Assembly: GCA_015689735.1 (NCBI GenBank)
Contig: WVSP01000005.1
Coordinates: forward strand, 1-64,000
Length of the DNA: 64,000 bases
Reading direction: 5' to 3'
From: Rhodobacterales bacterium LSUCC0031
GTDB lineage: Bacteria > Pseudomonadota > Alphaproteobacteria > Rhodobacterales > Rhodobacteraceae
Shown here: positions 44,045 to 59,192 of the stretch, one piece after another
Position numbering within the stretch: position 1 is the first letter of the stretch
Layout of the letters: each line of letters starts with the position of its first letter
The notes under the pieces: model-generated
What the model saw: only the letters and a program-made list of their open reading frames with translations
Told to the model about the DNA's origin: nothing
The model's database searches: none
Position numbers and translations under genes: made by a program

Positions 44045-44755
44045 CTAGACCGGGGCGGGCAGGCTCAATTGAGCATAATGGATCACCAATCGCACCATAC
44101 CATCGGCAAAGTCACCCCCTTGCGCGCTGACCAATAGGGGCGTCCCGTCCCAATACACGATCGGAGCCGCCGGGCCATTGACCCACGAATTGAGCGACAC
44201 ACCAAGCCCTGTTCCAAAGCGGCCGGTATCGCCGGCAACCCCAAGGCTCCAACTTTGGGCTGTACCGCTTATCGTCGCGACCACGCGCCCTGTCACCCCG
44301 AACAAGACCGCACGGGGCGGGATCAAGACGCCGCTTTCCACGCTCGCTCCCGCTGTGATGGACAGGTCGAATTGCAATGATTGCAGCGCCAGCGCCGCAC
44401 CTTGAGGGCTGAGGGTCATGGCACCCAAGCGCCAGACTTCCCCATCCCACAGGGCAGAGTTTCCCACATCTTGCACAAAGGCCCGCCAGCCTCGCTGGGG
44501 CGGCACAAAGACCCATCCACCACCCAAGCGCAGCGCAAGTCGGCCCGCCTGGCCTGCCCATTCATCGGCAGCCCCCTCCGGCACAGCGTAAAGCATGCCG
44601 TCATGCGCCGACACGGGCGGGACTGATACGCTGATCGAACCTAATACCAGATGCGTCAAGGCATCGATCCGCACTAAGGCTTCGTTCACAGTCACATGCT
44701 TTTGCGCCTGTGCAGGGGCCAAGAGCGGTAGCAACATTCGCGGTGTGTCAGTCAT
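44045..44755 (-). CDS. DUF2793 protein at the distal end of the GTA cluster
   Basis: 236 residues. The N-terminus MLLPLLAPAQAQKHVTVNEA with ALVRIDALTHLVL is the DUF2793 signature. RPxW-rich segments follow (VPPQRGWRAFVQDVGNSALW). The second half is beta-rich and ends in VRLVIHYAQLSLPAPV, suggesting a tail-tip or fibre-like trimer protein. It overlaps the g15 stop by eight bases, so it is translated with the tail genes. DUF2793 proteins occur next to GTA tails and in phages of this group; the function is not established. Confidence 0.8.
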   Translation of the reverse strand: MTDTPRMLLPLLAPAQAQKHVTVNEALVRIDALTHLVLGSISVSVPPVSAHDGMLYAVPEGAADEWAGQAGRLALRLGGGWVFVPPQRGWRAFVQDVGNSALWDGEVWRLGAMTLSPQGAALALQSLQFDLSITAGASVESGVLIPPRAVLFGVTGRVVATISGTAQSWSLGVAGDTGRFGTGLGVSLNSWVNGPAAPIVYWDGTPLLVSAQGGDFADGMVRLVIHYAQLSLPAPV

Positions 44756-47700
44756 CGATCTCGATCCTTGTAAATGGCCCTGGCCCGTAGCGATCGGACA
44801 GCTGGGCAACCTCGATTGCATATCCACCTGCGACGCCATCCCCCGCTCGCATCGCGGCGGCGTAAGTGAATACTGGCGCACTCAGCACCGTCTCGCGGCG
44901 CATCGCGCCATCAACCCAAACCCGCATCAGATATTGCTCGCTCGCCTCACCCAGCGGCACGTCAAAGCCTTCCCAGCTGTCTCCGTCGATCCGTGTACGC
45001 CGCACCCAAGTCAGCGCGAGGTCATCGCCTTGCTTGCGCGCGCGCAGATGTGCAGGTGCAAATGGCCGCAAGCCAACACCACGAAAGGCGCGCACACGTT
45101 CAACATAACTTGCGTCATCGACCGCCCGTAACGCAGGTCCAACCCGGTAGTGACGCGCCAAGCCACGGGCAGCGATCGGCAAATCGATCTGCACCGGCGC
45201 CCCATCGAGCAGCACGAACAGGCTGCCCTCGGGCCAGATCGCCGGCATGATCGCATCCGTGCCTTGTTGGCCGCGCAACCGCATCCCGATCTCCCAAAGG
45301 TTTTCTCCAACCAATTGCGCGCCGGCGAACTGGATGACCTCCCAATCCTCCTCATCGCCCATGCCGATCGCTGCGACATTGCCCCCATTCAGCACCGTTC
45401 CCAAATCCGCGGCCGCAAGCTGACCTGCGGGCAGTTGCACCCGCAATGCCGCCCCGCGATCCCAAAGGCCCGCTGGCGCGGCACGCAGCGGCGTGACGAG
45501 CCGCCCGATCACAGCGCGGCGCTCGATCAAGCGGTTCAGCACGAAACCATCCGCCGCCGGCGCAGCATAAGCTGCAACCGTTCCGGGCCAAGGCACCGCC
45601 GAAATGGCCAGATGGGGGGCATGTTCAACCTCTGCCCCGCTCAAGAGTGGCAAATCGAGAAAGACCGGGCTGACAGGAACAGGCGCGATATAGGGGGTGG
45701 TGGCGACAAACTCTTCAACCGCATCCGACGGCTCCCGCGATGTCGGTTCCACGCGCACCGCTTCGATCTCACGCACCCCACGGTCTTCGATCCGATCGAT
45801 GCGCCATGTCGAGCCATCCTGCAACGCGACCATCTCCCCTGCGCCCAGCGCCCGGCGCGAGGGCGGCAAAATGAGCCGCAGTTGATCGCGTGCGATCCGT
45901 GCCTCGGCCAGCCAGCGTTCAGCCACCGCTTGGCCCTCTGGCGCGGTCATCGCCAATGGGAGGTCAAGCGCGGTCACCCCATCGGCCCCGTCGCCGGGGA
46001 ACACCGCCTCGGCGACCCGATCTTCATAGCCTGCCTCGGCGGCCACATGGCTCACACGCACGCGCCCCACGACTTCAACTTCCGCCGCACGGGTTTCGCT
46101 GATACCGCCCCCGTCTTCGTGTTCATAAGCCGTTTCCGCCTGAGAAATCAGGGCCGAACTCCGACGCGGCAAGGGCAAGAAAACCAGTTTTCCATCACGC
46201 TCCACCGCCTGAAATCCATGGCTGAGCATCAGGGCTTGCAAACGCGCACGCGCGCTTTCCGTCTCACCCGAAATGTGACCGCGTACCAAACCAAACAGCG
46301 CGGAAACATCATAGTCGTCTACCCCCGCACCTTCGCAAAGTTCGGCCACCACACGGTCAAGCGGTGCCGCTTCGATCCGGCCTGTCACCCAATGGCCCAA
46401 ACGCCAATTTGCCCCATCCGACCACAACCCTGTTTCATTGGGAAAGGCAGGCCAAGGCCGCGCATCCCACGCCCATACATGGGCATAATCCATCGCAAGC
46501 ATGGGTCCACCATAGACAGCAGAAATCGGATTATGGGCAGGATCATCCCAATAGGACATGATCGCGCGCAGATATTGCGCTTGGATTACATCGTCGCGCC
46601 GCCCACTCGAATGACGCGGCAAGGCGCTTTCGTCGCTTTTGGGATCAAAAAACTTATTGGGCTCGTTGGAGCCCTTATCGACCGCCGGACAACCGATCTC
46701 GGTAAAGCGGACGGGCTTGGAACCGGGGATCCAAGGCGTTTGATGCAACGCGCGCGCGGTGACCTCAAGCCCAACGAATACGACCGTATGACCAGCAATA
46801 TTGTTGCCTGGACCAAATCCGAAATTGGCCCGAGGGTCGGTCGATTTGGGAATGATCTCGCACCGAAATTCGAATGTGCCGTCGACATGGGTGATATTCT
46901 CGACCGCTTGCACGACATGGCCTGATAGGATGCTGGGCTGCAAATTCCCCGGCGGTCCGACAACGTAGATCCATTCCACCGCCGCCCCGCGATGATCAAG
47001 CGTCAAGCGCAGATAGCTTGCGGTGCCAGCGCGATAGAAAAGCCGAACTTGGTACAGCGTATCTTGCCGGCTGAGAAAATCCGCTGACTGCACACGTGAG
47101 AGGTAATTTCCCGCCGCATCGACAATCTCGACGGCGTGGCGAAACCGCCCTTCGACAAATTCCCCCGCCACCGGGGCCAAAGTCGCTCCAGCCACCGGCG
47201 TCCAAAGATCGGGCCGGTCCCCATGTGCGACAGCCCATCCCGCTGGCCCATTGATGCGATTGTGGTGCAGCTGCGACCACCACCCGCGCAAATCCTTGTA
47301 GCGAAAAGTCCAAGGCTCTCCATACTGCCCATCTGTGATTGGCTCACGCCGTTGTGCAGCACGGGCTTCTTGCGTGGGATAATACCAATCATACCCCTCA
47401 CCGCCCGCGATGTTCGCCTGCAAATAGTCGAGATCGTAAATCTCTCCCCAGCTTGAATCCGCATGGTCATCACCATCGCGCCAATCGCTGAGCGGCATGT
47501 AATTGTCGATCGCGATGAAATCGATATTGGCATCGGCCCAAAGCGGGTCGAGATGGAAATAGACATCCCCGGTCCCATCCTGTGGCTGGTAGCCGAAGTA
47601 TTCCGACCAATCGGCCGCATAACTGAGCTTTGCGACGGGCAGCAATGCGCGCACCTCGGCCGCCAATGCGATCAGCTGGGTGACAGCCGGAAAGCCTTGG

Positions 47701-49166
47701 GCATCGCGCATCTGCGTCAATCCCCGCATTTCCGACCCGATGCAAAACGCATCCACCCCGCCTGCCGCCGCAGCAAGGGCCGCAGCATGTAAAATGAAGC
47801 GCGAATAGCTCCATTCATCTGGACCCGCATAGAGGACGGCACCTGGGCTAATCGTAAAATGATTGGCACGCGCCGTGCCAAAGAAGGAAGCCACCGCTGC
47901 GCCATTGGCCGCGCTGCGGTCAGGGCTTGCAGGCATGCCAGGGGCCAAGGCCGCGGTCATCCGGCCCCGCCATGGCAAGGGCGGTTGTTCGGCACGCCCA
48001 TAGGGGTCGGGCAAACCATTGCCTTGCAAGATCTCCATCAGCAAAAACGGATAGAGCATCACCTCTTGACCACCGTCGTGGATCGCTTGGATCGCTTCGA
48101 TCACCGAGGCATCGGCCGGTGTGCCGCCATAGATCGGCCGCCCGTCAACACGGGCTAGAATGCTCGCCTCTGCCCGACCAATCCCGCCGGCACGCCAAGG
48201 CATCTCGACCCCGTCAAGCGCGGTGTCCTCTACCTTAGGGCGCACCTTGCAGGTACCGGCGCGCAAATCATCGCCGAACCACGAATAAATGAGGCTGACC
48301 GATCGCAGATTGGGCAAGCTAGCGCGCATCTGCCCCAGCGCGCGATTGAAATCTGCCCCACCCGCTTGCGTGTTGGTGTTGATTGCCTTGCGATGGCCAA
48401 AGCCGTTCTCAAGCGTGATCTGGCGCGTCGAAAGCGCATATTCTCCAGTCCCCGGCATCAGCGCAACCGCGCGCACCAGATCAGCGGCCGCAGGCAAGAG
48501 CGCGCGCTTGGGTTGCGCCGGACGCACCACCTCAAAGGCGAATTGCGGCACCCTGTTGCCAAAAGGGGAAAGATCAAGATCTTCGATGACCACATAGGCA
48601 ATCCCGCGATAGGCCGGAACATGGCCTGCCCCTTCGACCGCCGCGATCAACGGATCGGGCATCTGGCTTTGGCTTCCTTGATAGACCCGCATCGCGATAC
48701 CGGTCTGATCCAGTTCTACGCCATCGGCCCAGATCCGCCCCACCCGGCGGATCTCGCCTTCGCACAGCGCAAGGGCGAGGCTCACGGAATAGCTATAGGT
48801 CGTCGTCACCGGCGTCGGTGCCGGACGCGGTGCAGCCCCCTTGCCGCGCCCGCCACCGCCGCCACCACTGGTGGTCACGGTCTCGACGAAATGCGTGGCC
48901 CAAATCACCTGACCGCTCAACCGCATCCGCCCGAAAAGCTGGGCAATCGGCGCGCCTTCGCTTGCACCTGTGATGCGGAAGCGGTCCACCCGACCTCGCT
49001 CGACAGGCTCGGATCCTGACCCCGTCGCCATCAGGCGTTGATCGATCACCCGGCCAAGCGTCGCACCGACTGCACGGCCGACAATCGCCCCCGACAACCC
49101 AAGGATTGGCCCCGTCGCCATACCTCCGATGGCCGCACCCGCGGCTGACAGTAGGATCGTCGCCAT
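44748..49166 (-). CDS. GTA host-specificity/tail hub protein (g15 megatron) with an extra domain
   Basis: 1472 residues; I recall about 1300 for RcGTA g15. It starts with a short Gly/Ala hydrophobic segment (about 10-45), a Gly-rich stretch at 100-107 and hub-like domains. A GTA TIM-barrel glycosidase-like domain begins near 440 (DEWSYSRFILHAAALA, DVYFHLDPLWADANIDFIAI, FRYKDLRGWW). The barrel resumes at 810 with PWIPGSKPVRFTEIGCPAVD after a roughly 168-residue insertion (640-807). The C-terminal tail/baseplate domain runs from about 940. It anchors the tail tip and helps reach the recipient cell. It lies four bases after g14. Confidence 0.92.
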   Translation of the reverse strand: MATILLSAAGAAIGGMATGPILGLSGAIVGRAVGATLGRVIDQRLMATGSGSEPVERGRVDRFRITGASEGAPIAQLFGRMRLSGQVIWATHFVETVTTSGGGGGGRGKGAAPRPAPTPVTTTYSYSVSLALALCEGEIRRVGRIWADGVELDQTGIAMRVYQGSQSQMPDPLIAAVEGAGHVPAYRGIAYVVIEDLDLSPFGNRVPQFAFEVVRPAQPKRALLPAAADLVRAVALMPGTGEYALSTRQITLENGFGHRKAINTNTQAGGADFNRALGQMRASLPNLRSVSLIYSWFGDDLRAGTCKVRPKVEDTALDGVEMPWRAGGIGRAEASILARVDGRPIYGGTPADASVIEAIQAIHDGGQEVMLYPFLLMEILQGNGLPDPYGRAEQPPLPWRGRMTAALAPGMPASPDRSAANGAAVASFFGTARANHFTISPGAVLYAGPDEWSYSRFILHAAALAAAAGGVDAFCIGSEMRGLTQMRDAQGFPAVTQLIALAAEVRALLPVAKLSYAADWSEYFGYQPQDGTGDVYFHLDPLWADANIDFIAIDNYMPLSDWRDGDDHADSSWGEIYDLDYLQANIAGGEGYDWYYPTQEARAAQRREPITDGQYGEPWTFRYKDLRGWWSQLHHNRINGPAGWAVAHGDRPDLWTPVAGATLAPVAGEFVEGRFRHAVEIVDAAGNYLSRVQSADFLSRQDTLYQVRLFYRAGTASYLRLTLDHRGAAVEWIYVVGPPGNLQPSILSGHVVQAVENITHVDGTFEFRCEIIPKSTDPRANFGFGPGNNIAGHTVVFVGLEVTARALHQTPWIPGSKPVRFTEIGCPAVDKGSNEPNKFFDPKSDESALPRHSSGRRDDVIQAQYLRAIMSYWDDPAHNPISAVYGGPMLAMDYAHVWAWDARPWPAFPNETGLWSDGANWRLGHWVTGRIEAAPLDRVVAELCEGAGVDDYDVSALFGLVRGHISGETESARARLQALMLSHGFQAVERDGKLVFLPLPRRSSALISQAETAYEHEDGGGISETRAAEVEVVGRVRVSHVAAEAGYEDRVAEAVFPGDGADGVTALDLPLAMTAPEGQAVAERWLAEARIARDQLRLILPPSRRALGAGEMVALQDGSTWRIDRIEDRGVREIEAVRVEPTSREPSDAVEEFVATTPYIAPVPVSPVFLDLPLLSGAEVEHAPHLAISAVPWPGTVAAYAAPAADGFVLNRLIERRAVIGRLVTPLRAAPAGLWDRGAALRVQLPAGQLAAADLGTVLNGGNVAAIGMGDEEDWEVIQFAGAQLVGENLWEIGMRLRGQQGTDAIMPAIWPEGSLFVLLDGAPVQIDLPIAARGLARHYRVGPALRAVDDASYVERVRAFRGVGLRPFAPAHLRARKQGDDLALTWVRRTRIDGDSWEGFDVPLGEASEQYLMRVWVDGAMRRETVLSAPVFTYAAAMRAGDGVAGGYAIEVAQLSDRYGPGPFTRIEIDD
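46746..47249 (-). other. Jelly-roll/CBM-like domain inserted in the g15 TIM barrel
   Basis: Residues about 640-807 of g15 separate two segments that are adjacent in typical GTA barrels (LRGWWSQLHHNRI and PWIPGSKPVRFTEIG). The insert has the layout of phage tail carbohydrate-binding jelly-rolls: HAVEIVDAAGNYLSRVQSAD, YQVRLFYRAGTASYLRLTLD, THVDGTFEFRCEIIP and FGFGPGNNIAG, then VVFVGLEVTA. The frame is intact. Domain identity is inferred from pattern, not from a search. Confidence 0.7.
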
Positions 49167-49170
49167 GTCT

Positions 49171-49602
49171 TTACATCCTTTCGGGAAACGCGAACCGCGC
49201 CACGATGCGCCGCGCCCAAGGCGGCGTCAGAGGGCTTTCCACGACCCCATGCCCGCTATAGGCATGGATAAAACGCGCCTCTTGGCCCGTCTCGGCTTGA
49301 AAACCCAGATGCTTGGCGACCCCGCCGTCTCGCATGCGAAACAAGATCACATCACCAATTGCCGCATCGCCCAGTACCTTGGGCTGCAAATGCCGAAGCG
49401 CGGCTTGCCAAAGCCGCTCCTGCCCCGAGGCTTCCGACCAATCAGGTGTATAGGGTGGTGCCAGTTCGGGTTCTTGACCCAATACTTCGCGCCACACTCC
49501 GCGCACCAAGCCAAGGCAATCGCACCCCGCGCCACGGCAACTGGCCTGATGCACATACGGCGTGCCAAGCCAGCCTCGCGCCGCCACAAGAACGGCGCTC
49601 AC
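49171..49602 (-). CDS. GTA NlpC/P60-family peptidase (g14)
   Basis: 143 residues. Catalytic Cys is in GCDCLGLVRGVW, with His in HLGFQ and HAYSGHGV. NlpC/P60 enzymes cut cell-wall peptides; in the RcGTA tail tip this protein probably opens the recipient peptidoglycan. The start is the GTG at 49602, which overlaps the g13 stop as GTGA and has GGGGAA seven bases upstream; a TTG at 49656 would extend 54 bases into g13. Confidence 0.9.
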   Translation of the reverse strand: MSAVLVAARGWLGTPYVHQASCRGAGCDCLGLVRGVWREVLGQEPELAPPYTPDWSEASGQERLWQAALRHLQPKVLGDAAIGDVILFRMRDGGVAKHLGFQAETGQEARFIHAYSGHGVVESPLTPPWARRIVARFAFPERM

Positions 49603-50483
49603 CGCCTGCTTCCCCCATCGCGCGCCGAGACGCGGCTGGGATGGGCCAGCAACCAATCATCACCCGGTAGATCCGGAAACCCACGAAAATTCAGGATATT
49701 GGCGAATTTCAGCCGACAGGTCTCCATCCGCTTATCGCATCCGGCACGAAGCTCTACTTGATCACCAACCGCCAGGTTAGCACGCAGCCGATCCCATAAC
49801 TCGACCCGCCGCAGATCACCGGCAACCCGGTCGATCTTGATCGCACCACCAAGCCCCTTGGCCGCGCCGGTGGTAATGCGGCAATGCCCGCGCTCGAACC
49901 AACGCGGCGCAAAGGCCCCGGTCAATGCCAGCATCAAGACACGGCTATTGGTGACCGCGACAATCTCGGCTTGAGTGTGAAATGCGGCGTCCGACAGATC
50001 GACACCACAGGCTCCATCACCCAAGACCGCCGCGCAGGCGCGCTGGTAAACACGACCCGTGGCTACATTCATCTGCGCGGACAACCCGCGCAATTCCGCG
50101 CGAAAGGCACCGCCCGATCGCGTCAGCTCGCCCAAGTTTCCACGAAACTGCAACACCCGGTTTTCCGGGGCGCTCCATTGCACAAGCCAAGTCTCGATCT
50201 GCGCCCCATCATAACGGCCTGCTGCGATATCGACCTCGGTGATTGCCGCATCGCTAAGGGCGCCCACCGCCTCGGTATTGTCAACGGCCAAGCCGGTGCT
50301 TTGGCTCAAGGCGCGCGCCGACAACCCTGTCTCGGGCCGAAATTCGCAACCATCAAAGGCCAAGGCACGATCATGATCGGTAAAGCCCAAGGTCAAGCCA
50401 TCGCCACGCGTCAGCCGCCAACAGCGGCAAACCTCGGTCGTCCCCGTGGCCAAATGTGTATCTAACCCCACAGGCCCGCTCAT
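49599..50483 (-). CDS. GTA baseplate hub protein (g13, DUF2163/BR0599 family)
   Basis: 294 residues. It begins with the DUF2163 region (CRCWRLTRGDGLTLGFTDHD). Conserved Cys residues in ACAAVLGDGACGVDL and AGCDKRMETCRLKFANILNF suit a metal or iron-sulfur site in the hub. FRGFPDLPGDDW is the family end motif. It overlaps g12 (ATGA) and g14 (GTGA). It connects the distal tail ring to the megatron. Confidence 0.9.
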   Translation of the reverse strand: MSGPVGLDTHLATGTTEVCRCWRLTRGDGLTLGFTDHDRALAFDGCEFRPETGLSARALSQSTGLAVDNTEAVGALSDAAITEVDIAAGRYDGAQIETWLVQWSAPENRVLQFRGNLGELTRSGGAFRAELRGLSAQMNVATGRVYQRACAAVLGDGACGVDLSDAAFHTQAEIVAVTNSRVLMLALTGAFAPRWFERGHCRITTGAAKGLGGAIKIDRVAGDLRRVELWDRLRANLAVGDQVELRAGCDKRMETCRLKFANILNFRGFPDLPGDDWLLAHPSRVSARDGGSRR

Positions 50484-51112
50484 AGCCGGATCTCCACCAC
50501 CGGCACGACAGGCACCTCGCCTGCTTGGAAGCTGGCGACGCTGGTTTGGATCATCTCGGTGTCAAAGCGCACCGGCACGTCAAATTCGAAACCGGCGGTG
50601 ATGACCTCGCCTGCATCAGGCGCCTCGGCAAAGGTGACAACCCCCGTGGCAAGATCGATGTCAAAATCGACGCCCAAGACCTGTTCATCTGTCGAAATCC
50701 CGACCAACACCGATCCCTCGACCGGCTTGGTGATCGGCCGCAGATAACCCTGCGCACCCTCACCATAGCGCTTGCTCAGTGAAAAATCGCGCTTCACCCC
50801 ATCGGCAATCGCGATCTCTTGGTCGCGAAAACCAGGGGAGGCCGACGGCAGGCAGCTTTTGTAATCTGCCCAATCCTTCCACCGAAAACCGAACATCTGC
50901 CCGCGCCGTGCCTCGAAAAAGGCGATCAGCACGGCGATATCATCCAAGGATCTCAGGCTCAAACCCGCATCATAGCGCCGCCGCGACTGCGCCCACGGCG
51001 TGTTGCGCTCCTCGAAGCCATTGGTCAACTGCACCACCTCGGTGCGCCGCTCTGGTCCACCCGATGAACCAAAACTCAGATTTGCCGGAAACCGAACTTC
51101 GTGAAATCCCAT
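50480..51112 (-). CDS. GTA distal tail protein (g12, DUF2460)
   Basis: 210 residues. MGFHEVRFPANLSFGSSGGP, RRYDAGLSLRSLDDIAVLIA and FEARRGQMFGFRWKDWADYK are the DUF2460 (TIGR02217) motifs. It forms the ring at the end of the tail tube. ATG 51112 follows GAGGAGGCAGGCC; an in-frame start 15 bases earlier is less likely. It ends in an ATGA overlap with g13. Confidence 0.92.
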   Translation of the reverse strand: MGFHEVRFPANLSFGSSGGPERRTEVVQLTNGFEERNTPWAQSRRRYDAGLSLRSLDDIAVLIAFFEARRGQMFGFRWKDWADYKSCLPSASPGFRDQEIAIADGVKRDFSLSKRYGEGAQGYLRPITKPVEGSVLVGISTDEQVLGVDFDIDLATGVVTFAEAPDAGEVITAGFEFDVPVRFDTEMIQTSVASFQAGEVPVVPVVEIRL

Positions 51113-51123
51113 GGCCTGCCTCC

Positions 51124-51789
51124 TCAACGGTTGCGCTGACCGCGCGCCAAGGCACGGCTCATCTGGGCGGCGATCTGTGTCTGGCTGCGCGCGAACCCCT
51201 GCACATCGGGTGTGGTGATGTTCATCACGACCTGCACCGGCCCACCGCCACCGCTTGCGGCCACACCCAAACGCCCATCAGGGCCACGGCGTAGCGGCAT
51301 GATCGCTTCCGGCCCCGCCTCCCCCATCAGCCCCATGCCACCGCGCATGGCAAAGCCCGTAGGCCCCTGCACCACCCCGCCCCGCGCAAAGGGCATCACG
51401 CGGCCTTGCGCGATCGCGCCACCATGCTGAAAGGGCAAGATGCTGCCGACCAGCCCATTGACCCCGTTTGCCAACGCCGCACCCAAGGCGTTCTGTACAG
51501 GCCGCATCGCGGTGTTATAGGCGGCATCCATCATGCTTTGCGCCACTCCACGCAGCGCATCCGATAACCGCATCCCGTCAAACACCACCCCGTCGAAGGC
51601 CCTGCGCAATCCGCCGCCAATGGCGCGGCTCATGCTCTGCACCTCGCGGCCGGTATATAGCAGGCTTCCCTGCATGCCCCGCAACTCAGCTTGGAAGGCC
51701 GCCGCCACATTCGCGGTTCCTGCCATCGTGACCTCCAGATCGGCGATCTGCACCTCAAGGGCATCAATACCCTCATCCATCCCGGTCAT
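51124..51789 (-). CDS. GTA tail tape measure protein (g11)
   Basis: 221 residues. LEVQIADLEVTMAGTANVAA is coiled-coil-like, followed by a central hydrophobic region (NTAMRPVQNALGAALANGVN) and a Gly-rich FQHGGAIAQGRVMPFARGG segment. GEAGPEAIMPLRRGPDGRLG is conserved in phage tape measures. The small size fits the short GTA tail. It overlaps g10.1 by 17 bases. Confidence 0.88.
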   Translation of the reverse strand: MTGMDEGIDALEVQIADLEVTMAGTANVAAAFQAELRGMQGSLLYTGREVQSMSRAIGGGLRRAFDGVVFDGMRLSDALRGVAQSMMDAAYNTAMRPVQNALGAALANGVNGLVGSILPFQHGGAIAQGRVMPFARGGVVQGPTGFAMRGGMGLMGEAGPEAIMPLRRGPDGRLGVAASGGGGPVQVVMNITTPDVQGFARSQTQIAAQMSRALARGQRNR

Positions 51790-51994
51790 TGCCCGTCTCC
51801 TGTGTCACCCTGTCTGGAAATCGCGCGATCAAGGCCTCTAGCCCCGCGCGCCCAAGCGGCGCCGACTCCGGCGCATCGCCAAGCATCAGCAAGAATTCCG
51901 CTGGGCTCAGCCGCCAAAACACCTCCGGCGCAAGGCCAAGCCCTTGGATACCCGCCCGCATCAAGGCCGCCCAATCAAAGGCCGCCGCGCTCAC
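51773..51994 (-). CDS. GTA tail assembly chaperone (g10.1, TIGR02216)
   Basis: 73 residues from a GTG start that overlaps the g10 stop (GTGA). FDWAALMRAGIQGLGLAPEV, then FWRLSPAEFLLML is the TIGR02216 signature. It is thought to guide tube polymerisation around the tape measure together with g10. Confidence 0.85.
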   Translation of the reverse strand: MSAAAFDWAALMRAGIQGLGLAPEVFWRLSPAEFLLMLGDAPESAPLGRAGLEALIARFPDRVTQETGNDRDG

Positions 51995-52305
51995 CCCGGC
52001 ACCCGAAAGGCCAGCACCAGCAACCGCGCGGCCACCCTTGCCGCCTCCAATGGCCCACCTTCGATATCGGCCGCCAAAAGATCAGCCAGATCGCCCTGCC
52101 ATCCGCCGCCACGCAGACCCGCGCAAACCAGTAAGAGCACGTCGCGCATCCGCAACGCGTCGCCCTCGAACCGCCCAACAAGATCAGCCAAGCTCTCGGC
52201 TTCCAGCCTTGTTTCCAGCTCCGCCAAGGCCCCGAGCGTCAGTTTCGCCACATGACGCTTCCCATCGATGACCAGAACCGCTTCACCCGCCCAAGGGTTA
52301 GCCAT
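51991..52305 (-). CDS. GTA tail chaperone (g10, GTA-gp10 family)
   Basis: 104 residues. GEAVLVIDGKRHVAKLTLGA, LAELETRLEAESLADLVGRF and DVLLLVCAGLRGGG match the GTA-gp10 family, related to phage tail assembly chaperones. It is three bases downstream of g9 and coupled to g10.1 by GTGA. Confidence 0.88.
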   Translation of the reverse strand: MANPWAGEAVLVIDGKRHVAKLTLGALAELETRLEAESLADLVGRFEGDALRMRDVLLLVCAGLRGGGWQGDLADLLAADIEGGPLEAARVAARLLVLAFRVPG

Positions 52306-52308
52306 CGC

Positions 52309-52722
52309 TCAGATCGCCGAAAAAATCAGCGCACCCGCCGAGGCCAACGACACCTCATAGGTCGCCTCGCCATCATGGCTGCCGGCATACTCGATCCCGG
52401 TGATTTGGAAATGCCCCTCCACGATCCCGAAATCGGGGATCACCACCTGGAATGCAGGCGTGGCCCCATCAAAAAAGATCTGCCGCGCGCGCGCATCCGT
52501 CGCGGCATCGCGAAACACCCCCGACCCCGAGATGCTGGCCGATTTCACCCCGCCCCCGGTCAATAGCTCACGCCAACCGCCCGCCGACTCTAGACTGGTC
52601 ACATCGATTTGTTCAGCATTGAAACTCAACCGCGTCGCCCGTAGCCCCGCCAGTGTCTCGAACACGCCGTTGCCATCCATATCGACCTTGACCAAAAGGT
52701 CCTTTCCACTTTGCGCAGACAT
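52309..52722 (-). CDS. GTA major tail (tube) protein (g9)
   Basis: 137 residues. SGKDLLVKVDMDGNGVFETL, LRATRLSFNAEQIDVTSLES and FRDAATDARARQIFFDGATP are highly conserved in RcGTA g9. It polymerises into the tail tube. AAGGA lies just upstream of two adjacent ATGs (52725, 52722); I used the second. Confidence 0.93.
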   Translation of the reverse strand: MSAQSGKDLLVKVDMDGNGVFETLAGLRATRLSFNAEQIDVTSLESAGGWRELLTGGGVKSASISGSGVFRDAATDARARQIFFDGATPAFQVVIPDFGIVEGHFQITGIEYAGSHDGEATYEVSLASAGALIFSAI

Positions 52723-52761
52723 CATATTTCCTTTTCACTAACAGAGAGATGAATGGCGTTT

Positions 52762-53172
52762 CTAAGCGTGTTCCGCATCGACCACGGCACGAAACCACAA
52801 TTCGATTTCCCGCCCCCCATCGCGTCGGAAAGCGCGGGCGCGCAAAAAGCGCAACGCGATCAACCGCCCATGCGACAAGGCAAGCTCCGCGTCGCTCAAA
52901 CGATCCGATATCGCTGCGGCCAACGTCTTGGCCGGACCAAACCCCGCACCTTGGCTGACCACGGTGACCGAAAAATCATGGATCGCGCCATCATGCGTCT
53001 TATCCGAGGCATCGCGCACCCGCTCAGGCCCCAAGACAAGGTAAAGCGGCGCCATTGGCCCCGAGGGCAGGGCATCATGCACTGCCCCCCCCGAAAGCGT
53101 GGCCACCGTCGGATCACTGCTCAACGCATCGAAAACCGCCGCCTGCAAGGCGGCCGACATGGCATAGCTCAT
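52762..53172 (-). CDS. GTA tail terminator/completion protein (g8, DUF3168)
   Basis: 136 residues. MSAALQAAVFDALSSDPTVA, PYLVLGPE-like LYLVLGPERVRDASDK and the end FRRDGGREIELWFRAVVD match DUF3168. It caps the tail at the head junction. The ATG at 53172 has GGAGG seven bases upstream and overlaps the g7 stop as ATGA. Confidence 0.9.
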   Translation of the reverse strand: MSYAMSAALQAAVFDALSSDPTVATLSGGAVHDALPSGPMAPLYLVLGPERVRDASDKTHDGAIHDFSVTVVSQGAGFGPAKTLAAAISDRLSDAELALSHGRLIALRFLRARAFRRDGGREIELWFRAVVDAEHA

Positions 53173-53498
53173 CGCCCAACCTCCTCGACAGCAAAGCAAC
53201 TCAGCCAGCGTGCAGCCGGGTCGACCTCATGCACCGCCGCGATCCGATATATGCGTGCGCCATCGCGAAACCGCATTGTCGCATCGGGACGCGCGGCTGC
53301 TCCCGGCGGCACCGCCCGCATGGTGATCACCAATTGCAAACGCGCAGCCTGATCCACCTCACGGCCTGCGCCACGCAGTGTTACCGCCGCCCAGATTTGC
53401 CCGCGCGCGGCCCAAACCTCGTGATATCCGCCCGACCCATCGGCGACCCGCGCTGGGGCCTCCAGCACAAGGCGACGGTTGAGATGATACGATCTCAT
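53169..53498 (-). CDS. GTA head-closure/stopper protein (g7)
   Basis: 109 residues. LNRRLVLEAPARVADGSGGY, HEVWAARGQIWAAVTLRGAG and RFRDGARIYRIAAVHEVDPA are the phage head-tail joining (gp16/SPP1 type) motifs. ATG 53498 overlaps the g6 stop (ATGA) and the gene ends in g8 (ATGA). Confidence 0.88.
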   Translation of the reverse strand: MRSYHLNRRLVLEAPARVADGSGGYHEVWAARGQIWAAVTLRGAGREVDQAARLQLVITMRAVPPGAAARPDATMRFRDGARIYRIAAVHEVDPAARWLSCFAVEEVGR

Positions 53499-54082
53499 GC
53501 ACCACCACCCCTCAGCCGGATCGGCCGATATGGCTCCAGCAAGACCGCGACCGCTTGCGGCACACCCTGCGCCGGATCGCTCTCCTGCCCCCAATAGCTT
53601 GCCGCGAGCATGATCACAGCCTGTTGCAGATCGGCGGGAATACCACCCCAATCCGCCCCAAAGCCCGCGTCGAACTCCACCTCAACCGACCCGGCATGTG
53701 CAGGTTGCACCAGTTGCGCCCCGGTCGCCACCAAGCGCGGGCGATGCATGTCGGGTTGCAAACGATAACTACCCGGGTCCACCGTGACGGATGTGCCATG
53801 GCGTGACAGCGTCCTAACGGCGTGGATCTCACGCACTGGGGCAAGCGGAAAAGGATGGGACCCCGCGCTTTGCCACTCCAGAACCGTCAGCAGAAATCGC
53901 CGCGCAAACAACGCCTTCCCAATGCGCGCCTCGATCGCGGCACAGGCCGCGCGCAAACACCGCTCAAGCACAGCATCTTGATTTACATCGTCCACGAAGC
54001 CTTGCGCCAACCGCAAATGCGCGGCGAGAACCGCGACAGGAAAGGCCGCGCTGGGGATCGCGGTCAATTCGACCATCATCAT
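53495..54082 (-). CDS. GTA head-tail connector/adaptor protein (g6)
   Basis: 195 residues. FPVAVLAAHLRLAQGFVDDV, CLRAACAAIEARIGKALFAR and LQQAVIMLAASYWGQES match the HK97 gp6-like adaptor family. It docks on the portal. The first of three ATGs (54082) has GGGAG eight bases upstream. It is separated from the capsid gene by a 164-base gap with a strong hairpin. Confidence 0.9.
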   Translation of the reverse strand: MMMVELTAIPSAAFPVAVLAAHLRLAQGFVDDVNQDAVLERCLRAACAAIEARIGKALFARRFLLTVLEWQSAGSHPFPLAPVREIHAVRTLSRHGTSVTVDPGSYRLQPDMHRPRLVATGAQLVQPAHAGSVEVEFDAGFGADWGGIPADLQQAVIMLAASYWGQESDPAQGVPQAVAVLLEPYRPIRLRGGGA

Positions 54083-54187
54083 TCTGTTATCTCCCGAATT
54101 CCTGCCGTCAAAGGGTGGGACGGTGCGCCATCCGCGCTGCTCAAGCGGAGAGACGCGCAGCTGGATCGCGTATGGCACACCGCCCCT

Positions 54188-54220
54188 CCCGCCCCACGAT
54201 CGTCGCCGTACGGGGGCGGG
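54188..54220 (-). terminator. Hairpin after the GTA capsid gene
   Basis: An 8-bp stem, CCCGCCCC with GGGGCGGG, lies 27 bases after the g5 stop on the minus strand. There is no U-run. It is the only sizeable non-coding gap inside the GTA cluster and may stabilise or attenuate the message so that capsid exceeds tail proteins. Confidence 0.6.
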
Positions 54221-54246
54221 GTTGCGTCGCTCCGCTTATCGACGGA

Positions 54247-55443
54247 TCAGGATTGACCGAACTTCAACAACTTGATCGCCGCGAAATCCGAAATCGCCCC
54301 ACCCACGCGCTTTGTGGCGTAGAAAAGAACATGTGGCTTGGCGCTGAAGGGGTCGCGCAGCACCCGCAGCTCGGGGCGTTCGGCAATGGTATAACCGGCG
54401 CCGAAATCGCCGAAAGCGATCGCCGTGCTGTCAATGGAAATATCGGGCATGTCCTCCGCAATCAGGACCGGATACCCCATCAACCGCGCTGGCTCACTGG
54501 CCGCCAGCCCGTCCGCCCAAAGGAAGCGCCCATCGGCATCCTTCATCTTGCGCACCGCACCCGCTGTTTTGGAGTTCATGACGAAGGTGGCATTTGCCCG
54601 GTACTGCGCCCCAAGCGCATAGACCAGATCGACAACCGCATCGGCAGGGTTTGCCGCGTCGAAATCACCAGCAGTACCAGTCACGACATAACCAAGCGTG
54701 CCCCAAGACCACGCATCATTGGGCATGACGAAGTTATTCAACATCCCCGAAGGGCGGCCCATCCCATCCCCATTGATAAAGGCATCCGCCTCGGCGCGGG
54801 CGAATTTGTCTGCGATACGGCCGGCCAACCAGCCTTCGATATCAAACGCCGCATCGTCGAGAAGGCGTTGCGACGCCTTGGGCATTGCCGACAATTCATG
54901 CAACGCAATCGAGATCCGCTCAATCTGCGGCGTCCCTGTCTCGGCGGTATCGGTCACCTCGTCGGCCCAGCCCGCGCCGGTATCGGTCGTGTCGATCAAC
55001 ACATCGAAACTGCTTGCTTCGACCTGCACAATGTTTGCAACGGCACGCAAACTCGCAGAACCGCGCAACACCGACTGGATCGTCTCGGCTGTCTGGGGAT
55101 CGACCAAATAGCCGCCTTCGGCATTGACCGCGGTGCTCATGCCCTTGCGCTCAATTTCAAGACCCCGCAACGCATCGTCATCACCATTGCGCAGATAGCT
55201 CGCCAAGGCCTTCCTATGCGGCGCGGCCTGGTCGATCTGCGATGAAAGTGCCGGGCGGGAATGGGTCGTCATCTTCGTGTTCAGCATGGCAATACGCTCT
55301 TCCTGCTTTTGAAACTTTGCCTTCATGTCGTCCTGAAACTGATTGAATTCGCACAAGAAGCCGCGCATGGCATCCTTCACGTCCGCAATCGCAAAAGGGG
55401 CCGCACGGGTATCGTCCGCCGCCCCTGATCGGGTCTCGGTCAT
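54247..55443 (-). CDS. GTA major capsid protein (g5)
   Basis: 398 residues, the RcGTA capsid length. An HK97-fold precursor: an N-terminal coiled scaffold (DDMKAKFQKQEERIAMLNTK), then the mature shell from about residue 100 (GGYLVDPQTAETIQSVLRGS, MPKASQRLLDDAAFDIEGWL, INGDGMGRPSGML). ATG 55443 has AGAGG eight bases upstream; earlier in-frame GTG/ATG codons are possible. The scaffold is expected to be removed by g4. Confidence 0.95.
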   Translation of the reverse strand: MTETRSGAADDTRAAPFAIADVKDAMRGFLCEFNQFQDDMKAKFQKQEERIAMLNTKMTTHSRPALSSQIDQAAPHRKALASYLRNGDDDALRGLEIERKGMSTAVNAEGGYLVDPQTAETIQSVLRGSASLRAVANIVQVEASSFDVLIDTTDTGAGWADEVTDTAETGTPQIERISIALHELSAMPKASQRLLDDAAFDIEGWLAGRIADKFARAEADAFINGDGMGRPSGMLNNFVMPNDAWSWGTLGYVVTGTAGDFDAANPADAVVDLVYALGAQYRANATFVMNSKTAGAVRKMKDADGRFLWADGLAASEPARLMGYPVLIAEDMPDISIDSTAIAFGDFGAGYTIAERPELRVLRDPFSAKPHVLFYATKRVGGAISDFAAIKLLKFGQS

Positions 55444-55473
55444 CTCCATCACCTCTGCTTTGGATGGTTGGGG

Positions 55474-56055
55474 TCAGCGGGGCTCGCGCGCCGCCAGCTT
55501 GGCACGGGCATCCTCGAACGCCTGTGTCAGTTCAATCAGGTCGTGATCAGCCTTGGCCTCATGGGCCGCGCTGGCCGAACCGACCCGCGCCTTGGGCAGC
55601 ATCGGGAATGTCACCAGCGACACTTCCCAAAGCTCCACCTCGGACAAAAGCCTACGCCCCTGCCCGTCTTTGGTCGCACGTAAAGTACGATAACCAATCG
55701 ACAATCCGTCGATTGCGCCCGCCGCGATCAGCGCCGCCGCCTCACGCGCCCGCGCCACTTCCATGAGCAAGCGCCCCTTGACGAACAGGCCACGGGCATC
55801 CTCGCGTACCTCGTCCCAGATCCCGATGGGCTCGGTTGGATCGTGCTGCCATAACATCCGCACCCGCCGCCCGGCACCGGCCAATCGCTTCAGACTGTCG
55901 CCATAAGCGCCGCGCTCGACGATATCGCCGCCCTGATCACATTCGCCAAACAGGCTCGCATAACCTGCGATCGCGTGATCATCGGTGACCTTCAATGCCT
56001 CGGCATCGAAGCGGGCGAATTTCGTCTCGATTTGAGATGGGAAAAACTCATTCAT
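55474..56055 (-). CDS. GTA prohead protease (g4, HK97 family)
   Basis: 193 residues. GYASLFGECDQGGDIVERGA, MLWQHDPTEPIGIWDEVRED (catalytic His) and GAIDGLSIGYRTLRA (catalytic Ser) define the U35 prohead protease fold. It cleaves the capsid N-terminal scaffold. The C-terminus is charged and helical. It is 30 bases before g5. Confidence 0.93.
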   Translation of the reverse strand: MNEFFPSQIETKFARFDAEALKVTDDHAIAGYASLFGECDQGGDIVERGAYGDSLKRLAGAGRRVRMLWQHDPTEPIGIWDEVREDARGLFVKGRLLMEVARAREAAALIAAGAIDGLSIGYRTLRATKDGQGRRLLSEVELWEVSLVTFPMLPKARVGSASAAHEAKADHDLIELTQAFEDARAKLAAREPR

Positions 56056-56064
56056 ATCAGAAAC

Positions 56065-56310
56065 CTACCTCAAGATGTTCAGTTGCAGAATGTCCGAGAC
56101 ACCCTGTGCCAGCACGACCGACACCATGCCGAAAACGGCGACCCATAGCCGACGCTCCAACCGCTCCAGCGCCGCCTCGATCCCTTCCAGTCTGACGCTC
56201 AAAGCCTGCCAACGCTCCTCCAGAACGCGCTCATTGGCATCGATCCGTGCGCTGGCCGCATCGAAAGGGTCGTAAAGGTAGCGCGATCCGCCCGAGCTAC
56301 GCCCGCTCAT
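56065..56310 (-). CDS. GTA head formation protein (g3.5)
   Basis: 81 residues. SRYLYDPFDAASARIDANER, then a coiled helix (EERWQALSVRLEGIEAALER) and one membrane-like segment (LWVAVFGMVSVVLAQGVSD) near the C-terminus. Small proteins of this layout sit between portal and protease in RcGTA clusters and are needed for head formation. ATG overlaps the g3 stop (ATGA). Confidence 0.8.
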   Translation of the reverse strand: MSGRSSGGSRYLYDPFDAASARIDANERVLEERWQALSVRLEGIEAALERLERRLWVAVFGMVSVVLAQGVSDILQLNILR

Positions 56311-57470
56311 GCGTTTGCCGACCGGTCGGGCAGGCCCAGCAATCGCCGCTTTTCGGCCTCGGTCAGGAAATCCGCCTCCGCGATACGCCGCCATTGGCTG
56401 TCGCGCTCCGTGGCCAAGGCTGGCACCTGATCAAGGTCGGGTGCCAAATCGACCGAGACGCCCCCGATGCTCGACATCCAGTTGGCCAAATGTGCCATCA
56501 CCTTTTGCGCCAAGGGCAAGACCGTCAACCTGTAGAATGCTCGGTTTGCCTCCGCGTAATTGGCATAGGTCGCATCCCCCGGAATACCGAGCAGCATCGG
56601 CGGCACCCCAAAGGCCAAAGCGATGTCGCGCGCTGCCGCCTCCTTGGTCTTTTGAAACTCCATATCCGAGGGGCTAAAGCCCATCGGTTTCCAATCGAGG
56701 CCACCTTCCAACAGCATCGGCCGTCCGGCATTGCGCGCGCCCTGATGATGGGTTTCAAGCTCTTCTTGCAGCCGTGTGAACTGATCGTCCGACATCGCCC
56801 CCGCACCATCCACACCGCGATAGACAATCGCCCCCGAGGGCCGCGCTGCGTTATCAAGTAAGGCCTTCGACCAGCGCGCCGCAGCATTATGCACATCGAT
56901 TGCCGTGGCAGCGGCCTGCAATGGGGCAAGGCCGTAATGGTCATCATGCGGATGAAAGGTCTTGATGTGGCAGATCCCCTCCGCAGCATAGCGATGCGTG
57001 CGCCCTCCGACGACATAGTCATAGGCCATCGGCCAGCCATCCGCCCCAGGGACAAGGCTGATCCGGTCCGAGCGTAGAACATGCAACTCGATCAACGCGC
57101 CATCGGCACCCTGCACCGCCTCAAGATAGGCATTCCCCGCCAACATCAGCTGCGCATAGACCGCCTCCAACAGCTCGGCCCGCCCCTGTGCCTGGTTGGG
57201 GCGCGCCAATAGCGCCAGCAACGGATGCGTCTCCATCCGTTGCCCATCTTCCCAGCACAGCAAAGGCAAGGCCGCCGCAGCTTCGGCGATCAAGCGGACG
57301 GCACGAAATCCGACAGGATTGCCCTGAAAGCCGTTGCGCGTCAGCGACACGGTATCCCGCGGGCTCCAAGCCACGCGCCCGACACTGCCCCAAACAGCCA
57401 CGCGCGCCGCGGCAGATGCCTTGGCCTCAACCACCTCGCCCTTACTTTTTCTAAATATTTTCAAACCCAT
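56307..57470 (-). CDS. GTA portal protein (g3, HK97 family)
   Basis: 387 residues. RNGFQGNPVGFRAVRLIAEA, LLARPNQAQGRAELLEAVYA, GICHIKTFHPHDDHYGLAPL and RDIALAFGVPPMLLGIPGDA are the phage portal motifs. It forms the dodecameric DNA gate and packaging motor base. ATG 57470 follows GAGGAG; a start nine bases upstream is possible. Confidence 0.94.
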   Translation of the reverse strand: MGLKIFRKSKGEVVEAKASAAARVAVWGSVGRVAWSPRDTVSLTRNGFQGNPVGFRAVRLIAEAAAALPLLCWEDGQRMETHPLLALLARPNQAQGRAELLEAVYAQLMLAGNAYLEAVQGADGALIELHVLRSDRISLVPGADGWPMAYDYVVGGRTHRYAAEGICHIKTFHPHDDHYGLAPLQAAATAIDVHNAAARWSKALLDNAARPSGAIVYRGVDGAGAMSDDQFTRLQEELETHHQGARNAGRPMLLEGGLDWKPMGFSPSDMEFQKTKEAAARDIALAFGVPPMLLGIPGDATYANYAEANRAFYRLTVLPLAQKVMAHLANWMSSIGGVSVDLAPDLDQVPALATERDSQWRRIAEADFLTEAEKRRLLGLPDRSANA

Positions 57471-57568
57471 GCAACGCACTCCTCAGAAAAAAGAAAGGCC
57501 GGGCTGCGACGACAGTACCCAACGCAGCCCCTCCAGGGCCGAGATCCAGATCATCAAGAAACGAATGG

Positions 57569-58975
57569 CTAGATCGCGCGGATCTGAGGGCTCAAGGCCC
57601 GCATGCCGGGGCGTAACAACCCGTCGGTCAACGCCCAGACCAAGGCGTCCAGCCGGTCAGGACTACCACCGCCCTCATAGCCGCGCAGGGTCATCAGGCA
57701 CATCTCGTCTTCCAGCATTGGCAACCCGCCGAGATGATGGACCCGCCCCTGTTCATACAGCGCCGCCACAGGCTCGGCCCGTGCGGCCTTGCCAATCACG
57801 GCACGCACGGGGCGCAAATTCACATGCGGATCGACCTGCCGCATGATCAACCCGACCATATCCCCGCCTTGGTTCACCTCGGCCACCATCCGTGTCGCGC
57901 CATGGCGATGATAGGCAGCGGCCGCAGCTTCGGCCCATGCCATGGGGCTCGCGGCCTTGACGCTTGCATCTTCCAGTACGACCGCCCGCCACTCATGCGG
58001 ACCACCACATTCCTCGATCGCAACGGCCACGATCCCGCAGGCATCCGAACGGGCATGGCCTGTCACCGGCGGATCGACGGCGATGATCACCCGCGCATCC
58101 TCCGGGGCATGATCGACACGCAACCCGTCCAGCATGGCGCGCGTCCACAGCGCATCTTGGGCATCCTCCAACAACTCGCCGTCCAATTCCTGTCGGCCCA
58201 GCCGCGACTTGCCATAGCGCGCCCGCACCTCACGTAAGAAACTTGGGGCCAGATTTGCCCGGTTCGCCTCCGTCGCGGCTTGCGTCACCACCGTGCTGTT
58301 GCGCTGCAAGAGCGATTTCAGCACCGCTACATTGCGTGGCGTCGTCGTCACCACCTGCCGGGGATGATCGCCCAACCGTAAACCGAATTGCAGCATGTCC
58401 CATGTCTCCTGACCTTTCGGCCATTTCGCCAATTCATCGGCCCATGCTGCATCGAATTGCGGCCCCCGCAACGCCTCGGGGTCATGCGCCGAATAAAGCC
58501 GCGCCTCGGCCCCGTTGGGCCATTCCAACCGCCGCTCACCGGCAATCCAGCGCGGCGCACGGTCAGGCGGCGAACAGGCAATGATCCCGCTCTCGCCCTT
58601 CACCATCACCGCCAAGGCCTGATCATAGGTCTCGCCCACCAAGGCTAGCCTGCGCGCCTGCCCGGGTGCGGCCGCAGTCGGCCCTTCTACCATCGCGCGC
58701 ACCCATTCGGCACCTGCCCGTGTCTTGCCTGCACCACGCCCCCCAAGAATGACCCAGCTTGTCCATTCCCCATCCGGCGGGAGTTGATGGGCCAAGGCCC
58801 AGAATTCGAACACATAGGGCAGTGCCGCCAAAGCCTCGTCACTCAACCCCTTCAGAAACGCGTCCACCGTCGCGGGTGGCGCGCAAGCGAGCCAATCTGC
58901 GCCCGATTTCAGCACGGGCAGCATCGAGATCAAGCTGCCCCGTTCCGTGTCGTGTATATCTCTGGCTTCCTGCAT
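57569..58975 (-). CDS. GTA terminase large subunit (g2)
   Basis: About 468 residues. Walker A is VILGGRGAGKTRAGAEW and nuclease-domain Asp residues are in IIAVDPPVTGHARSDACGIV. FEFWALAHQLPPDGEWTSW precedes the ATPase. It pumps host DNA into the head and cuts it. The start is uncertain: ATG 58975 has AAGGCG upstream but overlaps g1 by about 137 bases; ATG 58924 overlaps by 86, and TTG 58846 (which follows GAAGGGG) by only eight. Confidence 0.9.
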   Translation of the reverse strand: MQEARDIHDTERGSLISMLPVLKSGADWLACAPPATVDAFLKGLSDEALAALPYVFEFWALAHQLPPDGEWTSWVILGGRGAGKTRAGAEWVRAMVEGPTAAAPGQARRLALVGETYDQALAVMVKGESGIIACSPPDRAPRWIAGERRLEWPNGAEARLYSAHDPEALRGPQFDAAWADELAKWPKGQETWDMLQFGLRLGDHPRQVVTTTPRNVAVLKSLLQRNSTVVTQAATEANRANLAPSFLREVRARYGKSRLGRQELDGELLEDAQDALWTRAMLDGLRVDHAPEDARVIIAVDPPVTGHARSDACGIVAVAIEECGGPHEWRAVVLEDASVKAASPMAWAEAAAAAYHRHGATRMVAEVNQGGDMVGLIMRQVDPHVNLRPVRAVIGKAARAEPVAALYEQGRVHHLGGLPMLEDEMCLMTLRGYEGGGSPDRLDALVWALTDGLLRPGMRALSPQIRAI

Positions 58976-59192
58976 CACGCGCCTTCACCTCCACCTGAAG
59001 CGCAGTCTGAAAGGCGGCGGCCACAGCACGCACATCCTTGACCACCTCGGTTGCATCGCCCTTGGGTGCTGCGCGCGCCGCGTCGAGCGTGCTCTCCAAC
59101 AGCTCGACCGCGACCTCCAATGCCTTATAGGCCCGCGCCACTGTCCGGTCCGCTTGGGCGAGATCCTCACTCTCGGTCATATTGTCGATCAT
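58839..59192 (-). CDS. GTA terminase small subunit (g1)
   Basis: 117 residues, mostly helical. EDLAQADRTVARAYKALEVA, VVKDVRAVAAAFQTALQVEV and DLDAARAEIGRRLARLRA match the GTA TerS pattern, which lacks the usual specific pac-site HTH and helps non-specific packaging. ATG 59192 has GAGG seven bases upstream; ATG 59180 is an alternative. It is the first gene of the GTA operon. Confidence 0.85.
   Translation of the reverse strand: MIDNMTESEDLAQADRTVARAYKALEVAVELLESTLDAARAAPKGDATEVVKDVRAVAAAFQTALQVEVKARDAGSQRYTRHGTGQLDLDAARAEIGRRLARLRATRDGGRVSEGVE

Follow-up and report, generated by a model that had tools for sequence, protein, structure and literature searches.

What is an additional domain doing in the tail tip of a gene transfer agent (GTA), a particle that is maintained by its hosts and on which selection to infect new ones cannot act? 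The question is raised by the first 64,000 nucleotides of contig WVSP01000005.1 of Rhodobacterales bacterium LSUCC0031 (assembly GCA_015689735.1), hereafter the window, in which g15, the gene for the GTA baseplate megatron, encodes a TIM barrel interrupted by a long insert. We consider it fairly probable that this insert is an exchangeable glycan-binding module, predicted to help hold the surface polysaccharide of the recipient cell. That it binds a glycan and alters the recipient range, as a preliminary description of the sequence had proposed, is a plausible putative function.

An inserted domain in the megatron barrel

The g15 product comprises 1472 amino acids (aa) in one open frame and is a megatron homologue with GTA_TIM, Phage-tail_3, and Rcc01698_C domains, as judged from Pfam and from the alignment to 6tba_8A (1304 aa), the megatron of RcGTA, the GTA of Rhodobacter capsulatus. 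In this alignment, residues 1-640 pair with residues 1-633 of RcGTA and residues 809-1470 pair with residues 639-1302, and 168 residues of g15 face 5 residues of RcGTA at the insertion point. The insert therefore comprises residues 641-808, encoded at 46743-47246, one codon from the position that had been proposed (46746-47249); the length arithmetic of that proposal, 1472 minus 168 giving 1304, is exact. The Pfam model GTA_TIM (PF13547) is likewise split, with profile positions 1-193 at 47247-47813 and 195-299 at 46440-46754, both above the cut-off, and a profile of the window's insert type (type A) matches at 46740-47246. The insert occupies the loop between helix alpha6 and strand beta7 of the barrel. 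It is predicted to form a separate beta-sandwich jelly-roll domain of the carbohydrate-binding module (CBM) type, and not an ordinary part of the barrel; the model and its fold matches agree with the layout recognised earlier from the sequence.

The same domain is found at the same place in four further genomes of the window's genus. Purifying selection acts on it: for L050/L080, the pair least affected by saturation (in the others the synonymous sites are almost saturated), the nonsynonymous (dN) and synonymous (dS) divergences are 0.081 and 0.583 (dN/dS ~0.14), compared with 0.039 and 0.383 (dN/dS 0.10) for the barrel and a dN/dS of 0.155 for the rest of g15. Because four relatives carry the insert and selection maintains it, chance and a frame artefact can be discarded. 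Nor is the insert common to the g15 proteins of the family, since in-frame inserts within GTA_TIM were found in at least 12 of the 346 genomes having GTA_TIM, among 394 family genomes in all (G000, G004, G023, G096, G154, G164, G198, G255, G301, G324, G343, and G394; a lower bound, with 37 genomes re-listed and multi-copy genomes read in part). Among 14 g15 frames of 1395-1540 aa with an intact GTA_TIM, 13 are merely extended upstream and hide no insert. The fourteenth (G288:C1:298000-305000, L149) has ~170 extra residues elsewhere, near reference position ~384, before GTA_TIM.

The fold of the host barrel matches GH113, and two catalytic-type glutamates, Glu479 and Glu823, are each present in every row of two alignments, one of 32 rows and the other, used for the tree, of 57. 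As the match to Pfam GH113 reaches 25.0 bits, below the cut-off of 27, we call the barrel GH113-like and not GH113. The function of the barrel is given as unknown in the TspA preprint (PMC13420450; this and the other papers are cited from excerpts), and the peripheral barrel of the baseplate is here recast as a GH113-like barrel able to carry a binding module. The main rival reading is that the insert is the substrate-binding module of a working endoglycosidase barrel, as in cellular enzymes combining a CBM with a glycoside hydrolase, and that the particle would cut through capsule or biofilm. This prediction may hold together with a glycan-binding module, but we regard it as unlikely: the excerpts of PMC7296036 and PMC13420450 mention no barrel activity, insert A emerges from an alpha-to-beta loop, which in the model would lie opposite the catalytic end, and the glutamates are equally invariant in 37 insert-free rows.

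The barrel loop is a site of repeated domain exchange

Five insert families (A, B, C, D, and F5/8 type C) occur at three neighbouring positions of the barrel, three of them within the window's genus. They have no clear mutual similarity; that between A and B is marginal (E 0.002-0.18), and two short pairings are at chance level. The genus was taken as Roseicyclus (13 genomes, nine with GTA_TIM), and accordingly the family as Rhodobacteraceae; three of the type A loci lie in genomes bearing the name Roseicyclus. Five of the nine genomes have type A, G005 has type B in the same loop, G001 and G002 have type C, and G011 has no insert. Type C, which looks LamG-like to the eye, is located in G001 and G002 ~26 residues upstream of the A site, before helix alpha6. 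A second megatron of G002 is insert-free and prophage-like, its g12-g14 being 42-51% identical to those of the window, as against 67-82% in the GTAs of the genus. Outside the genus, type A or its relatives occur in G164, G324, G198, and G023, type B in G301 (41% identity to G005), type C in G343 (45% to G001), and type D in G096 and G255 (39%), while the insert of G154 is an F5/8 type C domain (Pfam 1e-7).

In a tree built from 57 g15 rows after removal of the insert columns, the insert state requires 11 changes, with L171 set as type A or omitted (12 changes with L171 as a state of its own). Type A taken by itself requires six changes, five of which are forced by starred branches when L171 is scored separately; a single starred clade unites G198 (A), G255 (D), and L179 (A). 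This tree comes from a short search, with insert-free rows of our choosing and with L003, L055, and L184 left out. Together with the alignment to 6tba_8A, it supports the earlier suggestion that the domain was acquired.

Inserts are also present in viral contigs. In a sample of the 80 loci most like the window, 69 of which were measurable, the landmark spacing is 67-68 residues in 64 loci and 201-264 residues in five, which indicates that insert-free g15 has a fixed spacing here. The five inserts are of type A (L179 and L171, with profile i-E values of 5e-20 and 5e-10), type B (L170, from a sequence identical to G005), and type C (L169 and L184). A pattern search of viral contigs for insert A found none; as L179 and L171 carry type A, this empty answer reflects a limit of patterns. 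No close relatives of insert A were found in isolated phages (best tblastn E 0.3). Eight of the 62 phage records with a megatron were read: the phages R5C and RcIroh have ~190 residues near the place of type C, ParKuw1 and RcZahn have inserts at other places, and RcOceanus, RDJL Phi 1, and RcSimone-Hastad have no insert splitting the alignment. Type A profiles gave no convincing match to the eight megatrons.

A further reading, which we consider less likely still than an active hydrolase, is that the insert is a contact module stabilising the baseplate, for instance by docking TspA or another peripheral protein. In RcGTA, TspA is in contact with the megatron loop 591-599 (PMC13420450), which precedes the insertion point by ~35 residues. 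All ten genus genomes tested and all nine other insert carriers have a TspA-like gene, but so do 39 of the 46 genomes in which no insert is known (for G098, among these 39, on a short, weak match only), and the sharing of one loop by different families is hard to square with a conserved protein contact. The label TspA-like rests on length, layout, and prevalence, not on a published sequence; as PF12218 is a poor marker (no genome of 64 above the cut-off and 19 at E 0.1), the genes were sought with an alignment of four TspA-like proteins. A replacement of TspA by the insert is ruled out, TspA-like genes coexisting with it in all carriers tested. The window's own genome has a full-length TspA-like tailspike, a 764-aa open frame on a separate contig (G000:C4:86606-88795). 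Finally, a hitch-hiking remnant of prophage recombination, tolerated in an exposed loop, would fit the insertion in a loop and the domain relatives in phage fibres, but it is already disfavoured and very improbable, given a selection on the insert near that on the rest of the protein, its retention in five genus genomes, and its open frame in other genera.

Relatives of the insert and its proposed role

The glycan-binding reading draws on the relatives of the insert. A profile of the five genus copies has matches in 14 of the 394 family genomes. In five of these (G000, G004, G164, G324, and G394) the match is in g15-type proteins, the G394 copy appearing phage-borne from neighbour genes g12-g14 that are 41-53% identical to those of the window. 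In the other nine, it is in separate smaller proteins, with E values of 1.4e-11 to 3.5e-4 (1.2e-15 to 2.7e-5 with a wider profile; an additional match in G168, which contains stop codons, was set aside). Profile comparison between the insert and this smaller-protein family gives a probability of 98.2% (E 6e-14, 116 columns), and the reverse search of the 13 genus genomes finds only g15 inserts, in five genomes, the best being that of the window (2.4e-12).

A short gene ends 2-14 nucleotides before the start of seven of the nine fibre-like genes. The one tested matches the head-spike base Rcc01079 (6tb9, E 2.4e-7), and a profile of six of the seven (alignment A4, without L071) finds a base gene in all nine genomes, a result that is circular for six of them. 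The base-like gene adjoins the fibre gene in eight of the nine, including L073, and is ~5.5 kb off in G233 (L068). Several homologues start with MLGLGL, MLGIGY, or alike; the RcGTA spike fibre (325 aa) is held in the base pentamer by a glycine/leucine N-terminal peptide (PMC7296036). With a base-like gene adjoining eight of the nine, the smaller homologues can be regarded as probable GTA head-spike fibres. The fibre gene of R. capsulatus lies, judging from locus tags, ahead of capsule genes, and a tagged version of the fibre attaches to capsulated cells (PMC10218006). Polysaccharide genes are near the fibre locus in two of three loci checked, namely L074 (Wzz, sugar transferase, and glycosyltransferase) and L070 (flippase-type and OpgC), which suggests possible co-inheritance of the ligand with the particle's binder. 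Given the profile homology, the base-gene neighbourhood, and the polysaccharide neighbours, the insert belongs to a GTA head-spike-fibre-type domain family linked to surface polysaccharide. Since it consists of the domain only, inside g15, and lacks the N-terminal peptide by which a fibre attaches to the spike base, it is related to spike fibres through this domain without being one. Remoter domain relatives occur in phage fibres, in some of them in tandem. The head-spike-base-like and fibre-like gene pairs described here are those of loci L067-L075. The viral contigs L099 and L103 encode proteins with two to five tandem domains of the head-spike-fibre type.

At E 0.01, the head-spike base was found in 139 of the 394 family genomes and in one of the 13 genus genomes, with none in the window's genome; it is present in three of the 12 insert-bearing genomes and in none of the six with type A in a GTA. 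The association between its absence and the insert is not significant (Fisher p 0.55 for all inserts, 0.09 for type A, and 0.17 with the genus counted once). A replacement of the head spike by the insert is unsupported, the base being also not found in 255 of the 394 family genomes.

Several points weigh against a carbohydrate-binding role. The structural model draws on a shallow alignment of 15 rows, 11 of which are distant, and sequence searches of Pfam, PHROGs, and the PDB gave no match to insert A, although hidden Markov model libraries miss remote members, which bears on the missing Pfam CBM match. MAM-domain, ephrin-receptor, and insecticidal crystal protein structures are among the matches of the insert, and such jelly-rolls also serve protein contacts. 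At the third fibre locus checked, L069, the neighbours tested include cytochromes and no polysaccharide genes.

Sugar binding, exposure in the particle, and an effect on recipient choice are what we infer for the insert. A carbohydrate-binding module would have been grafted into the alpha6-beta7 loop of the GH113-like barrel, and three copies per particle, the RcGTA megatron being trimeric, would project from the periphery of the baseplate. The module would bind the capsular polysaccharide or O-antigen of the recipient, lending the particle avidity and specificity beyond those of the tail fibres and the TspA tailspike, and would help it to settle tail-down. The loop would be a docking site for interchangeable beta-sandwich modules of different kinds, the module of the window's lineage being of the kind found in GTA head-spike fibres. 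The homology to spike-fibre proteins, some of them beside polysaccharide-synthesis genes, gives a hypothesis for the ligand: the producer's own kind of capsule.

More tentatively, and with less than even confidence, we propose that the barrel loops are a cassette site where glycan-binding modules are swapped, that recipient choice thereby evolves as it does in the receptor-binding proteins of phages, though the particle cannot replicate, and that in Roseicyclus-like lineages (base in one of 13) a capsule-binding head-spike module moved to the tail tip. As GTAs are host-kept and escape selection for new hosts, a recurrent turnover of predicted glycan-binding tip modules would imply that the choice of DNA recipient is itself under selection.

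The surrounding cluster and comparison with known systems

The window holds one chromosomal head-tail cluster of the RcGTA type, on the minus strand from terminase through g15 and beside YceG/mltG (Table 1), which is taken from its genes alone to be a GTA. The gene order from terminase to g15 is the same in relatives. Pfam matches were obtained for six of the eight open reading frames (ORFs) preceding g15, those at the g14 and g11 positions having none. A further ORF beyond the cluster is presumably fabF. The DUF2793 ORF, a like gene of which lies near g15 in the GTA loci of seven relatives, is one that we take to be a GTA tail fibre.

Table 1. Positions of g15, its parts, and neighbouring genes in the window
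Feature	Position	Strand	Basis
g15, GTA baseplate megatron, RcGTA Rcc01698 homologue	44748..49166	-	frame, Pfam, 6tba_8A alignment
Inserted jelly-roll domain (predicted), type A, head-spike-fibre-like, aa 641-808	46743..47246	-	6tba_8A alignment, GTA_TIM split, fold
N-terminal part of GTA_TIM barrel, aa 452-640; helix alpha6, aa 626-631	47247..47813	-	
C-terminal part of barrel, aa 809-915; strand beta7, aa 819-825	46422..46742	-	
Glu479 codon, end of strand 4, putative acid/base-type residue of clan GH-A	47730..47732	-	
Glu823 codon, end of strand 7, putative nucleophile-type residue of clan GH-A	46698..46700	-	
Place of type C insert in relatives, before helix alpha6, GTA_TIM position ~167 (none in window)	47328..47348	-	
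Rest of head-tail cluster: g14 position, baseplate hub, DUF2460, g11 position, capsid, prohead protease, portal, large terminase	49171..58978	-	
YceG/mltG	beyond 49171..58978 cluster		Pfam
ORF downstream of g15, DUF2793 (PF10983)	44045..44881	-	Pfam 7.5e-27

Two other kinds of g15 locus were encountered. In two other genera (L162, G373:C1:438001-458000; L163, G393:C1:44001-64000), ~15.5 kb of foreign DNA is inserted in g15, at a shared place (codons of IDNYMPLSDW, window aa ~551-560) and accompanied by a short repeat. This DNA has integrase-like and large primase-like genes, and in one case a ParA-like gene, all judged by eye; g15 may thus serve as the integration site of a mobile element. In L164, L165, and L166 (G082, G055, and G104), all that is left of the GTA cluster within the 17 kb read is a single gene in which the N-terminal part of terminase g2 is fused in frame to the C-terminal half of g15. 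The fusion frames comprise 845-878 aa, are 58-62% identical, and have a ratio of nonsynonymous to synonymous polymorphism (pN/pS) of ~0.5, and mltG/fabF-like genes adjoin two of the three. A search without a positive control failed to find the N-terminal part of g15 in any of the 12 genomes with such a match to half of the gene.

In the open-licence literature, as far as its accessible text goes, we found no account of domains inserted into GTA megatrons or of an exchange of such domains. The megatron of R4C is one published case with an additional carbohydrate-binding domain absent from RcGTA (PMC10276861), to which the GTA tail-tip insert adds. The R4C megatron (PDB 8gtc_M, residues 482-629) likewise has an extra beta-sandwich domain of carbohydrate-binding-like fold in its peripheral TIM barrel. 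In contrast, its 146 residues are inserted at window aa ~492, after strand 4 and thus in another loop, and R4C is a free phage whereas the window holds a chromosomal GTA. No sequence similarity was seen that would make the two inserts the same domain.

The identity of the insert to CBM22, CBM4, CBM16, and CBM29 is 5-16%, and their sugar specificity is not transferable to it. The tail fibre domain of the Pseudomonas phages E217 and Pa193 (residues 199-381) is 13-15% identical to the insert and, in contrast to it, is located in a separate fibre. The RcGTA head-spike fibre (Rcc01080), which binds capsule (PMC10218006), is a separate head protein on the spike base Rcc01079, whereas the domain of the window lies inside a tail-tip protein. 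The likeness is a homologous jelly-roll in spike-fibre-type proteins of other genera: the homology reaches genes beside a spike-base-like gene, the sequence of Rcc01080 itself being outside the comparison.
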